From: Pseudomonas sp. Os17
Lineage (GTDB): Bacteria; Pseudomonadota; Gammaproteobacteria; Pseudomonadales; Pseudomonadaceae
Reading direction: 5' to 3'
DNA length: 64,000 nucleotides
Assembly (NCBI RefSeq): GCF_001547895.1
Contig: NZ_AP014627.1
Span: 6,202,001 to 6,266,000, forward strand
Notes under the pieces: generated by a model
What the model was told of the DNA's origin: nothing
Databases searched by the model: none
What the model saw: the letters and a program-made list of their open reading frames with translations, nothing else
Made by a program: the position numbers and the translations under genes
Shown: piece by piece, positions 7,030 through 63,515 of the stretch
How positions within the stretch are numbered: position 1 is the first letter of the stretch
Layout: each line of letters opens with the position of its first letter

Positions 7030-7659
7030 TCAGAGCAGCTTGTGCTCCATGGCGTACTTCACCAGCTCAGCGAGGGACGTGACGTTGAGCTTTTGCATCA
7101 ACCGCGCCTTGTGGGTGCTGATGGTCTTGCTGCTCAGCGCCAGTTGCTGGGCGATGTCGTTGACATTGGCCCCTTGGGCCAGGCGTTCGAAGACCGAGAA
7201 TTCGCGCTCGGACAGCAGCGAATGCAAGGGGCGGGCGTCGGTCAGACCGACTTCGAAGACCATGCGGTCCGCCAGATCCGGATCGATGTAGCGCCCGCCC
7301 GAGGCCACCTTGCGGATCGCGGTCAGCAGCAGCGACGGGTCGCTGTCCTTGGTGGCGTAGCCGGCAGCGCCGATCTTCAACGCCCGGGCGGCCATCTGCG
7401 CCTCATCGTGCATCGACAGCACCAGAATCGCCGGCGGGTTGTTCAGCGCGCGAATCCGCGGAATCGCCTCCAGACCGTTCACCCCGGGCATGGAGATGTC
7501 CAGCAGCACCACCTCGCAGCTCACCTGGCGCAGGGTTTCCAGCAGTTGCTCGCCGTTGCTCGCCTCCCCCACCACGGTGAGATCCTTGGCCAACCCGATC
7601 AGCTGCTTGATGCCCTCGCGGACAATGGTGTGGTCTTCGGCTACCAGTACACGGATCAC
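7030..7659 (-). CDS. agtR: LuxR/NarL-family response regulator AgtR
   Basis: A 209-aa two-component regulator. The receiver domain has the acidic pair E8/D9, phospho-acceptor D54 in VLLDISMPG and K104 in ATKDSDP. The C-terminal helix-turn-helix (about 145-205) contains LSEREFSVFERLAQGANVND and SKTISTHKARLMQKL, the NarL DNA-binding signature. It lies 13 nt after the sensor gene and upstream of agtA, as in P. aeruginosa PA0601. There it is reported to control GABA/5-aminovalerate uptake and to affect responses to peptidoglycan-derived signals. It probably activates the agt operon. Confidence 0.88.
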   Translation of the reverse strand: MIRVLVAEDHTIVREGIKQLIGLAKDLTVVGEASNGEQLLETLRQVSCEVVLLDISMPGVNGLEAIPRIRALNNPPAILVLSMHDEAQMAARALKIGAAGYATKDSDPSLLLTAIRKVASGGRYIDPDLADRMVFEVGLTDARPLHSLLSEREFSVFERLAQGANVNDIAQQLALSSKTISTHKARLMQKLNVTSLAELVKYAMEHKLL

Positions 7660-28483: not shown

Positions 28484-28827
28484 CCGCGCTCGATCTCCAC
28501 GCCCACGCCCGCGGCAGCCGGAACGGCACCCGGCTTGGTCAGTTTCAAATGCAGCCACGGAATATGGAATTCGCTCATCAGCACTTCGGCAAGACGCTCG
28601 GCAAAGGTTTCCACCAACTGGTACTGGGCCTGCTCGGCAAACGCCTGGATCCGCGTGGAAACGCTGGCGTAATCCAGCGCCAGCGTCAGATCATCCCCAG
28701 CGGCGGCCGGGCGATTATCCCAGGCAAAGCTCAGATCAAGACGCAGGCACTGTCGGATGCCACGCTCCCAGTCGTAGGCTCCAATCACGGTGTCCACTTC
28801 CAGTCCTTCGATAAACACTCTGTCCAA
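28474..28827 (-). CDS. folB: Dihydroneopterin aldolase
   Basis: A 117-aa enzyme converting dihydroneopterin to hydroxymethyldihydropterin, the substrate of FolK. The N-terminal [20 protein letters not shown] is typical. No ATG fits this N-terminus; the likely start is the TTG at 28827, with GGAG 8 nt upstream. An ATG eight codons earlier (28851) would add MSCCGEEC and is a weaker choice. The gene is divergent from plsY. Confidence 0.9.
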
Positions 28828-28901
28828 GCACTCTTCTCCGCAGCACGACAAGGGCGCAATGCGCCGTTAGAATCAGGGCGTCCTCGCCCGGAATAGTTAG
28901 C

Positions 28902-33480: not shown

Positions 33481-35328
<1,848 letters not shown>

Positions 35329-58587: not shown

Positions 58588-59517
58588 ATGGATTTTAAGC
58601 AACTGCGTTATTTCGTCGCGGTGTATGAAGAAGGCCACGTGGGCCGTGCTGCAGAGCGCCTGTCGATCTCACAACCGGCACTGTCCCAGCAGATCCGCCA
58701 ACTGGAGCAGAACCTCGACGTCAGCCTGTTTGAACGCAGCAGCAAGCGGCTCTTGCCGACCCTGGCCGCCCACACCCTCTACAATCACGCCCTGCCCCTG
58801 CTCGATGGCCTGCAACAGGCCCGCGAAGCCTTGCGCAACTTCAAGGGCCAAGCCCTGCGCACCCTGGCCATCGGCGTACTGCAAACGGTGCACACCAGCC
58901 TGGTGCCGCAGATGCTCGAACGGGTACGCAAAGCCCAGCCCCATCTGGTGGTGCAGATCTACGAACTGACGGGCCTGGAGATCGAACGGCGCTTGCTCAA
59001 TGGCTCGCTGGACATCGGCATCAGCTACCTGCCGCCACGCCAGCCCGGCCTGCATGGCGTTCCGCTCTATGAAGACGAGCTGACACTGGTCATCCCCGCG
59101 CAACACCCGTTGCGCGAATTCAAGAAGGTGTCCATGAGCCAGGCGGCGGAACTGCCGATGTTGCTACTGGGAGAGGAGTTTCAGGTGCGCCAGATCTGGC
59201 AGGCACAACTGGCCAATCTGGGACGGCGCCCGCAGGTACAGGCGGAACTGAACAATATGGCCGGCATCCTCGACAGCCTGCCCCACACCCAGCTGGCCAC
59301 CGTGCTTCCGGGGCGTTCGCAACAGCAGCACAGCAACAGCGAATTGCTGTGGAAGCCCTTGAGCGAACCCAGGGTGCCATTGAAAGTCGGATTGGTCTGT
59401 CGCGATCTGCAGCGTCAGCAGGGGACGCTGGAATTGCTGCGAACCTTGCTGGAAGACTCGATGAGCACCCACGACGGACGCCTGGGCACAACGGTGGTGC
59501 CGGACATCCTGGGCTGA
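58588..59517 (+). CDS. LysR-family transcriptional regulator
   Basis: A 309-aa regulator of the CynR/BenM type. The N-terminal helix-turn-helix DFKQLRYFVAVYEEGHVGRAAERLSISQPALSQQI begins at residue 2, and an effector-binding domain follows from about 90. A regulator in this place is called pqqH in some strains. Divergent orientation suggests it controls the MOSC-aminotransferase pair and possibly itself. It is followed by a terminator shared with RsmY on the other strand. Confidence 0.9.
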   Translation: MDFKQLRYFVAVYEEGHVGRAAERLSISQPALSQQIRQLEQNLDVSLFERSSKRLLPTLAAHTLYNHALPLLDGLQQAREALRNFKGQALRTLAIGVLQTVHTSLVPQMLERVRKAQPHLVVQIYELTGLEIERRLLNGSLDIGISYLPPRQPGLHGVPLYEDELTLVIPAQHPLREFKKVSMSQAAELPMLLLGEEFQVRQIWQAQLANLGRRPQVQAELNNMAGILDSLPHTQLATVLPGRSQQQHSNSELLWKPLSEPRVPLKVGLVCRDLQRQQGTLELLRTLLEDSMSTHDGRLGTTVVPDILG

Positions 59518-59544
59518 ACTCGCCGGAATAAAAAAGCCGGGCAA

Positions 59545-59667
59545 AAGAAAACCCCGCCGAAGCGGGGTTTTGCAGACTGTTTCCCTGACATCCTTTTCAC
59601 TCCACCATCCTGGCGGAATCCTACGTGTCCGTGTTGTTGCTTTGCGCTTCCTGCGCGACGTCCATGT
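59545..59667 (-). ncRNA. rsmY: RsmY small RNA (Gac/Rsm regulator)
   Basis: A ~120-nt minus-strand RNA between the LysR gene and an acyl-CoA dehydrogenase. It carries at least eight GGA motifs, several as AGGA, including GCGC-AGGAA-GCGC, where the motif sits in a hairpin loop; this element is shared with P. aeruginosa RsmY. It ends in the terminator hairpin at 59548-59571. RsmY titrates the translational repressors RsmA/RsmE and so releases secondary-metabolite, exoenzyme and biofilm genes. The predicted length (about 118-123 nt) equals the RsmY of P. protegens CHA0. The start near 59667 follows a -10-like TAATCT (59678-59673); the exact base is an estimate. Confidence 0.9.
59548..59571. terminator. 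Shared terminator of RsmY and the LysR gene
   Basis: AAAACCCCGC (59548-59557), CGAA, GCGGGGTTTT (59562-59571): a perfect 10-bp stem with A/T tails on both sides. It ends RsmY on the minus strand and can stop LysR transcription on the plus strand. Confidence 0.93.
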
Positions 59668-59722
59668 GAAGTAGATTAGCCTCAGCCGTCATCTACCGAT
59701 ATGGACGATCAGCAGCACGTTA

Positions 59723-59740
59723 TGTAAGAGATTACTTACA
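59723..59740 (-). promoter_or_regulatory. GacA upstream activating sequence for RsmY
   Basis: TGTAAG (59723-59728), six bases, CTTACA (59735-59740) equals the published GacA UAS consensus TGTAAGN6CTTACA. It is centred about 65 bases upstream of the predicted RsmY start, the position expected for GacA activation. Only one such site was noticed in the window. Confidence 0.92.
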
Positions 59741-59754
59741 AAGTCCCTTGCCCG

Positions 59755-61533
59755 TTAAAACTGCTCAGCCGGCAGCAGGAACAGCGATTCGCTACCCGCT
59801 TTCACCGAGGCGGTCAGGGAGTGAATACGCGGCAGCAGACGTGCAAAGTAGAACCGTGCAGTCCCCAGCTTGCTGGCATAGAACGCCTCTTCCTGCTCCT
59901 TGCCCAGGGCCGCCTTGGCCATCAACGCCCACATGTAGGCATAAGCGGTGTAGCCAAACACCTGCAGGTATTCCACCGATGCCGCACCAATTTCATTCGG
60001 GTTGCTGATCGCTCGATCCAGCAACCAGGCGGTCAGCTCATCCAGATTGTCCAGAGCCGCATTCAACGGCCGGGTGAACTCTGCCAGCTGCCCATCGGCC
60101 GTCGCGGTGAAATGGCGGATCTCATCGGCGAACAGGCGGTAGAAAGCCCCGCCGCTGCCCACGATCTTGCGCCCCACCAGGTCCAGGGCCTGGATGCCGT
60201 TGGTGCCTTCGTAGATCTGGGTGATCCGCACGTCGCGCACCAGCTGTTCCTGGCCCCATTCACGAATGTAGCCGTGCCCACCAAAGATCTGCTGGCCATG
60301 CACCGTGGTTTCCAGGCCCAGGTCGGTGAGGAATGCCTTGGCCACGGGGGTCAGCAAGGCCACCAGGCTTTCCGCCCGCTGGCGGGTCTGGGCGTCCTCG
60401 CTGAACTTGGCGGTATCGAGCTGCATCGCCACATAGGTGGAAAATGCCCGACCGCCTTCGTTGGCGGCCTTCATGGTCAGCAGCATGCGCCGTACGTCCG
60501 GGTGCACGATGATCGGATCGGCGACCTTGTCCTTGGCTTGCGGCCCGGTCGGCGCACGACTCTGCAGACGGTCACGAGCATACTCGACAGCGTTCTGATA
60601 GGAGCGCTCACCGGTGGCCAGCCCCTGGATACCCACGCCCAGGCGCTCGTAGTTCATCATGGTGAACATCGCCGCCAGGCCCTTGTTCGGCTCGCCGACC
60701 AGGTAACCAATGGCCTGATCGAAGTTCATCACGCAGGTGGCCGAAGCCTGGATCCCCATCTTGTGCTCGATCGAACCGCAGCTCACCGGGTTGCGCTCGC
60801 CCAGGCTGCCATCGGCGTTGACCAGGAACTTGGGCACCAGGAACAGGGAAATCCCCTTGGGACCGGCCGGGGCGTCCGGCAGCTTGGCCAGCACCAGATG
60901 GATAATGTTTTCCGTCAGGTCGTGCTCACCACCGGTAATGAAGATCTTGGTCCCGCTGATGGCGTAGGCTCCGTCGGCCCGGGGTTCGGCCTTGGTGCGA
61001 ATGATGCCCAGGTCGGTACCGGCATGGGGCTCGGTCAGGCACATGGAACCGGCCCAGACACCGGCATACATGTTCGGCAGGTAAGTGGCTTTCAGCTCTT
61101 CGCTGGCGTGGGCGTTGATCGACAGGCAGGCGCCCGCCGTCAGCATCGGATACAGACCAAAGGCCAGGCTCGCGGAGTTGACCATTTCCTCGACCTGGGC
61201 GGAAACCGCCTTGGGCATGCCCATGCCGCCAAACTCAGGATCACCGCCCACACCCACCCAACCGCCTTCGGCATAGGTCTGATAGGCCTGGGGGAACCCC
61301 TGGGGAGTGGTGACCGCGGTGTCGTTCCAGTGACAGCCTTCCTCGTCGGCAGCGCGGCTCAGCGGAGCGATACTGCGGGCAGTGACCTTGCCCGCTTCCT
61401 CCAGAATCGCCTCGACCGTCTCGGCATCCACAGTCTCAGCCAATGCCGGTAACTGGGCCCAGAGTTTGGCGACCTCGAAAACTTCATTGAGGACGAAGCG
61501 CATATCGCGCAGGGGCGCTTTGTAGTCAGCCAT
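59755..61533 (-). CDS. Acyl-CoA dehydrogenase (FadE type)
   Basis: A 592-aa FAD enzyme of fatty-acid beta-oxidation. The N-terminal KAPLRDMRFVLNEV is the leader domain of the large FadE-like class. The central part has MCLTEPHAGTDLGIIRTKA (substrate/FAD contact), and IFGGHGYIREWGQEQLVRD, YEGTNGIQALDLVGRK is the C-terminal core. The ATG at 61533 gives the normal N-terminus. It is a paralog of the next gene (about 590 aa each, same layout), like the adjacent fadE pair of P. aeruginosa. Chain-length preference cannot be told. Confidence 0.92.
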   Translation of the reverse strand: MADYKAPLRDMRFVLNEVFEVAKLWAQLPALAETVDAETVEAILEEAGKVTARSIAPLSRAADEEGCHWNDTAVTTPQGFPQAYQTYAEGGWVGVGGDPEFGGMGMPKAVSAQVEEMVNSASLAFGLYPMLTAGACLSINAHASEELKATYLPNMYAGVWAGSMCLTEPHAGTDLGIIRTKAEPRADGAYAISGTKIFITGGEHDLTENIIHLVLAKLPDAPAGPKGISLFLVPKFLVNADGSLGERNPVSCGSIEHKMGIQASATCVMNFDQAIGYLVGEPNKGLAAMFTMMNYERLGVGIQGLATGERSYQNAVEYARDRLQSRAPTGPQAKDKVADPIIVHPDVRRMLLTMKAANEGGRAFSTYVAMQLDTAKFSEDAQTRQRAESLVALLTPVAKAFLTDLGLETTVHGQQIFGGHGYIREWGQEQLVRDVRITQIYEGTNGIQALDLVGRKIVGSGGAFYRLFADEIRHFTATADGQLAEFTRPLNAALDNLDELTAWLLDRAISNPNEIGAASVEYLQVFGYTAYAYMWALMAKAALGKEQEEAFYASKLGTARFYFARLLPRIHSLTASVKAGSESLFLLPAEQF

Positions 61534-61677
61534 GGCAAACCTCGCAGGATCTAAACAAGCGGACCGCAACGGGCCCATTGACGAAAAGCCGAGTGTACCC
61601 GAACAACTTTTGCGACACATAGGGTCAACTAGTGACTTTATTGTTATTTTTGGTCACAGCCATGAATACGCAAGACA

Positions 61678-61718: not shown

Positions 61719-63515
61719 TTACAGAGCGAACCAATGCGCCGGGAGCTGCATCAGGCAATCACTGCCGGCGTCGATCGCCGCCAGATGCGAAGCGGTACGC
61801 GGCAACAGGCGCTTGAAGTAGAACTCACAGGTCGCCAGCTTGGCGCGGGCAAAATCGCTGTCCCCCTGCCCGGCATCGAGCTGTTGCTGAGCCGCCAGGG
61901 CCATGCGCAGCCAGAGATAGGCCAGGACGATGTAACCGCTGTACATCAGGTAATCCAGGGCCGCCGCCCCCACTTCGTCCGGGTTCTTCAGCGCGGCCAT
62001 GCCGATCCGGGTGGTCAACTCGCCCCACTGCCGGTTCAAGCCATCAAGTTGCGCAATATAGGCCTTGAGCTGAGGATGCTCGGCATGGGCCCCACAGAAC
62101 CTGTGCACGATCTTGGTGAACCCCAGCAACAGCTTGCCCTGGCTGCCCAGAACCTTGCGCCCCAGCAAGTCCAGAGCCTGGATGCCGTTGGTGCCTTCAT
62201 AGATCAGGGCGATACGACAATCGCGCACCAGTTGTTCCATGCCCCATTCACGAATGTAGCCGTGACCGCCAAACACCTGCATGCCGTGGTTGGTCACTTC
62301 AAGGCCGGTCTCGGTCATGAACGCCTTGCAGATCGGGGTCAGGAACGCCAGGAGGTTCTCGGCATCCTGACGCTGGGCCGGGTCGGTGTTCAGGTGGGCC
62401 ACGTCCAGCAACTGGGCGGTGAAATAGGCGAGGGCACGGTTGCCCTCGTTGAAGGCTTTCATGGTCAACAGCATGCGCCGCACATCCGCATGGACGATGA
62501 TCGGATCCGCCGCCTTGTCCGGGGACTTGGGCCCGCTCAGGGAGCGCATCTGCAAACGATCGTTGGCGTAGCGGACCGCGCCCTGGAAACTGGCTTCCCC
62601 CAGGCACAAGCCCTGCATCCCGGTGCCCAGGCGCGCGTGGTTCATCATGGTGAACATGCAGTTCAGGCCCTTGTTGGCCTCGCCCAGCAGAAAGCCCCTG
62701 GCCCCGTCGAAGTTCAATACGCAAGTGGCCGAGGCCTTGATCCCCATCTTGTGCTCGATGGAGCCGCAACTCAGCGCATTGCGCTCGCCGGCCTCTCCTG
62801 CCGCATCCGGCAGGAACTTGGGCACGATGAACAGGGAAATGCCCTTGGTCCCGGCCGGTGCGTCCGGCAGCTTGGCCAGCACCAGATGAATGATGTTCTC
62901 ACTCATGTCGTGCTCGCCGGCAGAGATGAAAATCTTGCTCCCCGACACGGCATAGCTACCGTCGGCCTGGGGTATGGCGCGGGTCTTGATCAGCCCCAGA
63001 TCCGTGCCGCAGTGGGCCTCGGTCAGGCACATGGTGCCGGTCCATTGCCCGGCGGTGAGTTTGCGCAGGTACAACTGTTTCTGCTCATGGCTGCCATGGG
63101 CATGAATCGCCGACATGGCGCCATGGGTCAGCCCCGGGTACATGCCCCAGGAGGTGTTGCTGGAACCCACCATCTCGCCGATCACCAGTCCCAGGGACTG
63201 GGGCAGCCCCTGGCCGCCATAGGCCGGATCGGCGGCCAGGCCATGCCAGCCGCCTTCGACGTATTGCGCGAAGGCCTGCTTGAAGCCCTTGGGGGTGGTC
63301 ACTGCGCCATTGTCAAAATGGCAGCCTTCCTCGTCGCCCGAGCGATTCAGCGGGGCCAGGACGCTCTCGCAGAACTTCGCGCCTTCCTCAAGGATCGCGT
63401 GGACCATGTCCGGGCTGGCATCGCTGGCACCCAGCGCGGCATAGCCGGCATGAAAGTCAAAGACGTGATCGATCAGAAAGCGCATGTCGCGCAGGGGAGC
63501 TTGATACTCGGGCAT
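61719..63515 (-). CDS. Acyl-CoA dehydrogenase (FadE type), paralog
   Basis: A 598-aa enzyme with the same layout as its neighbour: PEYQAPLRDMRFLIDHVF at the N-terminus, MCLTEAHCGTDLGLIKTRA, then VFGGHGYIREWGMEQLVRDCRIALIYEGTNGIQALDLLGRK near the C-terminus. The two differ enough to suggest different chain-length ranges. It has its own terminator, so the pair is probably not one transcript. The start at 63515 fits the family N-terminus. Confidence 0.92.
   Translation of the reverse strand: MPEYQAPLRDMRFLIDHVFDFHAGYAALGASDASPDMVHAILEEGAKFCESVLAPLNRSGDEEGCHFDNGAVTTPKGFKQAFAQYVEGGWHGLAADPAYGGQGLPQSLGLVIGEMVGSSNTSWGMYPGLTHGAMSAIHAHGSHEQKQLYLRKLTAGQWTGTMCLTEAHCGTDLGLIKTRAIPQADGSYAVSGSKIFISAGEHDMSENIIHLVLAKLPDAPAGTKGISLFIVPKFLPDAAGEAGERNALSCGSIEHKMGIKASATCVLNFDGARGFLLGEANKGLNCMFTMMNHARLGTGMQGLCLGEASFQGAVRYANDRLQMRSLSGPKSPDKAADPIIVHADVRRMLLTMKAFNEGNRALAYFTAQLLDVAHLNTDPAQRQDAENLLAFLTPICKAFMTETGLEVTNHGMQVFGGHGYIREWGMEQLVRDCRIALIYEGTNGIQALDLLGRKVLGSQGKLLLGFTKIVHRFCGAHAEHPQLKAYIAQLDGLNRQWGELTTRIGMAALKNPDEVGAAALDYLMYSGYIVLAYLWLRMALAAQQQLDAGQGDSDFARAKLATCEFYFKRLLPRTASHLAAIDAGSDCLMQLPAHWFAL

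Follow-up and report, generated by a model that had tools for sequence, protein, structure and literature searches.

In pseudomonads that protect plants, the Gac/Rsm cascade directs the production of antibiotics and exoenzymes, and RsmY is among its main switches. This RNA and the Rsm promoters are reportedly the subject of Valverde 2003, Kay 2005 and Humair 2010. In relatives of the strain considered here, rsmY is activated by GacA, and the RNA sequesters RsmA and RsmE through its GGA motifs (PMC2375449, PMC3973561, PMC13187841). An example is P. protegens Pf-5, in which the expression of an rsmY-lux fusion was lower in a gacA mutant and the function of RsmY required the GGA element (PMC13187841). 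Mapping of GacA by 3D-seq in P. aeruginosa gave significant sites at rsmY and rsmZ only, and these were also the only ones on which 3D-seq and native-level ChIP-seq agreed; the 1,125 sites of an earlier GacA ChIP-seq under overexpression were doubted by the same authors (PMC9159945). Another method gave two further candidate GacA targets (PMC9927353). A figure legend of PMC4353343 covers several Pseudomonas strains and describes their rsmY regions together with the upstream activating sequence (UAS) and a regulator gene.

The locus described here lies near one end of a 64 kb stretch of DNA, referred to as the window, in which a preliminary description had placed an RsmY under a GacA box. The stretch is read as rsmY, the gene of a probably GacA-activated RNA of ~118 nt that would titrate RsmA/RsmE, with a probability of about 0.98; its transcription, GacA dependence and protein binding are assigned by analogy. 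The features of the locus are collected in Table 1.

Table 1. Features of the rsmY locus in the window
Feature	Position	Strand	Remarks
LysR-type regulator, convergent with rsmY	58588..59517	+	nearest NCBIfam model CynR, below its cut-off
Hairpin terminator, symmetric A4/U4	59548..59571	-	covariance model, fold, alignment
RsmY small RNA, 118 nt, eight GGA	59548..59665	-	RF00195 125.5 bits, full model
Stem-loop 2, CCGCC-AGGAU-GGUGG, GGA in loop	59602..59616	-	94.1% of cells paired
Stem-loop 1, GCGC-AGGAA-GCGC, GGA in loop	59644..59656	-	all four pairs paired in 17/17 sequences
Linker from GacA box to RNA start, 57 nt	59666..59722	-	contains the -10-like TAATCT
GacA upstream activating sequence	59723..59740	-	exact TGTAAG-N6-CTTACA in minus-strand reading, TGTAAGTAATCTCTTACA
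Acyl-CoA dehydrogenase, PF12806 C-terminal domain, upstream of rsmY	59755..61620	-	start codon uncertain

RsmY match, promoter and RNA structure

What was observed directly is the sequence, its match to the model, the box with its spacing, the conservation of the locus and the presence of partner genes in the genome. The Rfam scan of the 64 kb window gave RsmY and one tRNA as matches over a cut-off and nothing else. The minus strand at 59665-59548 scores 125.5 bits (E 2.3e-31) with the RsmY model (RF00195), whose gathering score is 57, and the match covers positions 1-121 of 121 with uncut ends. The name given to the RNA under the GacA box is therefore borne out, and the covariance search that had been proposed yields a full-length match, ending at 59548. 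The 5′ end is placed by the model at 59665 instead of near 59667, and 59665 is the likely start of the RNA. That annotation of proteins alone would miss the gene was an overstatement, since a plain Rfam scan finds it and published work already describes such regions (PMC4353343). At the scale of the genome, RsmY exceeds the cut-off at one place, and the only other match, at the rsmX locus, has 48.7 bits and falls below it; both statements apply to the 150 of 514 candidates scored.

Weaker matches around the same hairpin were set aside. A plus-strand match of the RsmY model at 59461-59571 (22.4 bits) stays below the cut-off and fits best at the symmetric terminator; the same hairpin is part of weak matches to rimP and istR, which are below their own cut-offs. 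Three phage records match 34-40 bases only, and none spans 80% of the 232-base query. These matches fall at query positions 186-228 of 232, about 59575-59533, which corresponds to the terminator hairpin and its edge.

The promoter region follows the order claimed earlier, from the GacA box through the -10-like box and the GGA-bearing RNA to the terminator. An exact TGTAAG-N6-CTTACA is present at 59740-59723, as had been stated, and is the only one in the window, while 0 of 100 shuffles contain one. The whole 6.89 Mb genome holds this pattern at two places and a backward-read control pattern at one. Because the control also matches once, the box alone is not decisive, and what decides is its position in front of an RsmY, at a distance of 57 nt from the RNA. 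The -10-like TAATCT was matched by eye at 59678-59673 on the minus strand, in agreement with the preliminary description. The promoter scan found no sigma-70 hexamer pair at rsmY, and the lack of such a pair is usual in activator-dependent promoters.

The RNA contains exactly eight GGA motifs in 118 nt, where eight or more had been reported. Stems 1 and 2 each present one of them in the loop, and the Rfam structure leaves most of the rest unpaired. This number is far from chance: at least eight GGA occur in 43 of the 127,764 frames of 118 nt on both strands of the window, at three places, one of which is rsmY. The other two are 33557-33678 (+) and 28766-28883 (-), at which the Rfam scan gave nothing over a cut-off.

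Folding of the single sequence gives -43.9 kcal/mol (z -3.18). In this fold stem-loop 2 is longer and bases 4-9 pair with 74-79, which leaves fewer GGAs exposed than in the Rfam structure. Across the 17 aligned sequences, 98.4% of the 322 cells of the three stems pair, compared with 39-58% in slid versions of the alignment. Three pairs are changed on both sides, including two in stem-loop 2, a number reached by 12 of 500 shuffles; the support from covariation is modest, because many stem columns are invariant. The terminator noticed earlier is recovered by the covariance model and the fold as the hairpin CCCCGC-UUCG-GCGGGG at 59567-59552, flanked by A4/U4. A simple terminator scan leaves this hairpin unlisted and lists another one at 59558-59540, with a count of 1 that equals the shuffle level (mean 1.1). 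Judging from the symmetric A4/U4 flanks, the terminator is possibly shared with the convergent LysR gene.

The distribution of RsmY was followed in 57 genomes: the genome of the window, 35 others of the genus and 21 from other genera of the order. RsmY passes the cut-off in 35 of the 36 genus genomes and in 0 of the 21 outside the genus; the remaining genus genome has a size of 3.7 Mb and a best match of 34.9 bits. Matches below the cut-off were found in 3 of the 21 non-genus genomes and 2 of 14 control genomes, and they indicate how weak matches are to be read without affecting the 125.5-bit match. Of 298 genus genomes, the own one included, 297 were matched in a nucleotide search with the whole region; the weakest of these matches (E about 1e-4) may reflect short pieces. 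Among 29 fetched relatives, the GacA box before rsmY is exact in 22 and carries one mismatch in 7. All 29 keep the RNA 56-58 nt from the box, and their GGA motifs number from 6 to 11.

Linker, neighbouring genes and state of the gene copy

The linker differs from that of most relatives. The sequence GGATCC lies between the box and the -10 in 24 of the 29 wider and 28 of the 29 nearest fetched relatives, two sets with four genomes in common. It is absent from the rsmY linker of the own genome, of P. protegens FD6, of Pseudomonas sp. Fl4BN1 and of one more relative (L038), and the spacing is unchanged. A 50-base exact piece covering the promoter and the RNA start is present in two named genomes, FD6 and Fl4BN1, according to a search that possibly omits records very similar to that of the window. 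The RNA and the linker of FD6 are identical to those of the window; one base in the box spacer and the flanks outside the gene differ, and no functional difference is seen. The Fl4BN1 linker has a single change. Because the 7.3 kb around rsmY are 88.9% identical to FD6, the window belongs to a close relative of FD6 and not to FD6 itself. From this pattern it might be proposed that the P. protegens clade replaced the GGATCC element and that rsmY there receives a second input different from that in the rest of the genus, a proposal that we consider unlikely.

The genes on both sides of rsmY had also been named before. The assignment of a LysR-type protein at 58588..59517 holds. The other neighbour, called FadE, is indeed an acyl-CoA dehydrogenase with PF12806, but the two FadE models listed for it score far below their cut-offs. 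Its stop codon occupies 59755-59757, so the gap to the UAS (59741-59754) is 14 nt instead of the 15 nt given earlier. The gene forms a tandem pair of PF12806 acyl-CoA dehydrogenase genes on the minus strand, at 59755-61620 and 61719-63515. In the 1.5 kb fetched on either side of rsmY in 29 relatives, the LysR gene was found in 20, the acyl-CoA dehydrogenase gene in 26 and both in 19; one of the nine sequences lacking LysR (L021) ends at a contig edge. The suggestion that rsmY ties the region to the control of secondary metabolism went too far: RsmY acts in trans, and its position is therefore uninformative on the regulation of the neighbours.

The position of the acyl-CoA dehydrogenase gene leads to another explanation, in which a large part of the rsmY RNA is read-through from this gene and would thereby be coupled to fatty-acid metabolism. 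The gene is on the same strand, the gap to the box is short, no terminator is listed between them, and the neighbour is kept in most relatives, as counted above. The conserved box and spacing suggest, however, that rsmY has its own promoter, and the GacA dependence of an rsmY promoter fusion in P. protegens Pf-5 (PMC13187841) argues in the same direction. Read-through as a major source is thus very improbable, and minor read-through from the acyl-CoA dehydrogenase gene into rsmY may occur.

Still less credible is a decayed or silent copy of rsmY. Such a state might be suspected from a linker that lacks the GGATCC kept by 24 of the 29 wider and 28 of the 29 nearest relatives, but every element from the box and its spacing through the -10, the GGA motifs and the stems to the terminator is intact, and the linker itself recurs unaltered in FD6 and with its single change in Fl4BN1. 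In addition, the genome has no second RsmY above the cut-off among the 150 of 514 candidates scored, and the rsmY of P. protegens Pf-5 is functional (PMC13187841).

Gac/Rsm partners and a second GacA-like box

The GacA orthologue of the genome is 58% identical to E. coli UvrY and scores 315 bits with NF007018 (UvrY/SirA/GacA) against a cut-off of 280. It adjoins uvrC (TIGR00194, 522 bits), which is the same arrangement as in E. coli. The window itself contains a response-regulator frame at 7033-7656 on the minus strand (G000:C1:6209033-6209656) with 38% identity to UvrY; the better UvrY match is the gene adjoining uvrC, located elsewhere in the genome. There are two CsrA-family genes in the genome. 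RsmZ is present with 125 bits and eight GGA (150 of 239 candidates scored), and RsmX with 106 bits and six GGA at G000:C1:4748098-4748210 (150 of 1619 candidates scored). Both are GGA-rich RNAs of the same group as RsmY and differ from it in their upstream regions. The GacA box of RsmZ is imperfect, with two mismatches, while in the 130 nt upstream of RsmX the best box, 58 nt away from the RNA, has four mismatches; the 3.1-kb rsmX locus holds no GacA box within three mismatches. That the locus in the window encodes RsmX or RsmZ rather than RsmY has a negligible chance: the rsmX model does match it with 32.2 bits, but this is below the cut-off of 56 and compares with 125.5 for RsmY, RsmX and RsmZ have genes of their own at other places in the genome, and the locus is absent from the RsmZ search matches listed (150 of 239 candidates scored).

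The second exact TGTAAG-N6-CTTACA of the genome (G000:C1:1155323-1155340; L003 1501-1518) precedes the listed algD start (GTG) by 405 bp. The gene product matches the solved enzyme 1mfz with 664 bits and is GDP-mannose 6-dehydrogenase; NCBIfam names the gene only as nucleotide-sugar dehydrogenase. The box stands at the edge of a conserved block of ~250 nt that extends in the direction opposite to algD. In 29 aligned sequences, the own one included, it is exact in 7, with one mismatch in 6, two in 15 and three in 1. Conservation is 0.90 in the spacer and 0.92 in the arms, compared with 0.86 and 0.70 in the 100-base flanks. By eye, the spacer of the rsmY box varies more freely than that of the algD box; the algD site may therefore serve another regulator. 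The algD box may then be a look-alike recognised by an alginate regulator; judged from the sequence, it could also be a direct GacA target, or it could have arisen by chance, the backward control having one genome match as well. The conserved block prompted the idea of a new Gac-type RNA beside algD, which was set aside: only 7 of the 29 sequences have the exact box, its spacer is conserved like the arms, and the Rfam scan of the 3-kb algD locus returned just two weak matches to plant microRNAs, both scoring far under the cut-off. The block may nevertheless contain an unknown RNA. In the parts of the literature available, a search on GacA or TGTAAG at algD in Pseudomonas gave nothing beyond a general review.

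Comparison with described RsmY systems

By analogy with the close relatives, the rsmY of the window is probably transcribed in a GacA-dependent manner, and its RNA would bind RsmA/E and influence the regulated traits. Phosphorylated GacA would bind the palindromic box at 59740-59723 and activate the rsmY promoter, which has a -10-like box and no clear -35. An RNA of ~118 nt would be made from ~59665 to 59548, where transcription would stop at the strong hairpin terminator. RsmA and RsmE, proteins of the CsrA type, would then be captured by the GGA motifs of RsmY and taken away from their target mRNAs. As a result, the freed mRNAs for secondary metabolites and exoproducts would become available for translation.

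Nothing in the rsmY of the window departs from the GacA/Rsm picture of its relatives. RsmY is familiar from close relatives, the copy looks intact, and the locus provides one more conserved example of rsmY without a new principle. The RsmY of P. protegens (CHA0, Pf-5) is a GacA-activated, GGA-bearing RNA with RsmA and RsmE as partners, and the RNA of the window, known here from its sequence, appears to be of the same kind. The RsmY of P. fluorescens SS101 resembles it in its 118 nt, eight GGA motifs and upstream UAS, and differs in the UAS spacer, which is CATTCT in SS101 and TAATCT in the window (PMC4353343). The legend on the rsmY regions in the same paper names a transcriptional regulator pqqH/cynR3/dnr, and in the window the regulator gene beside rsmY is of the LysR type.
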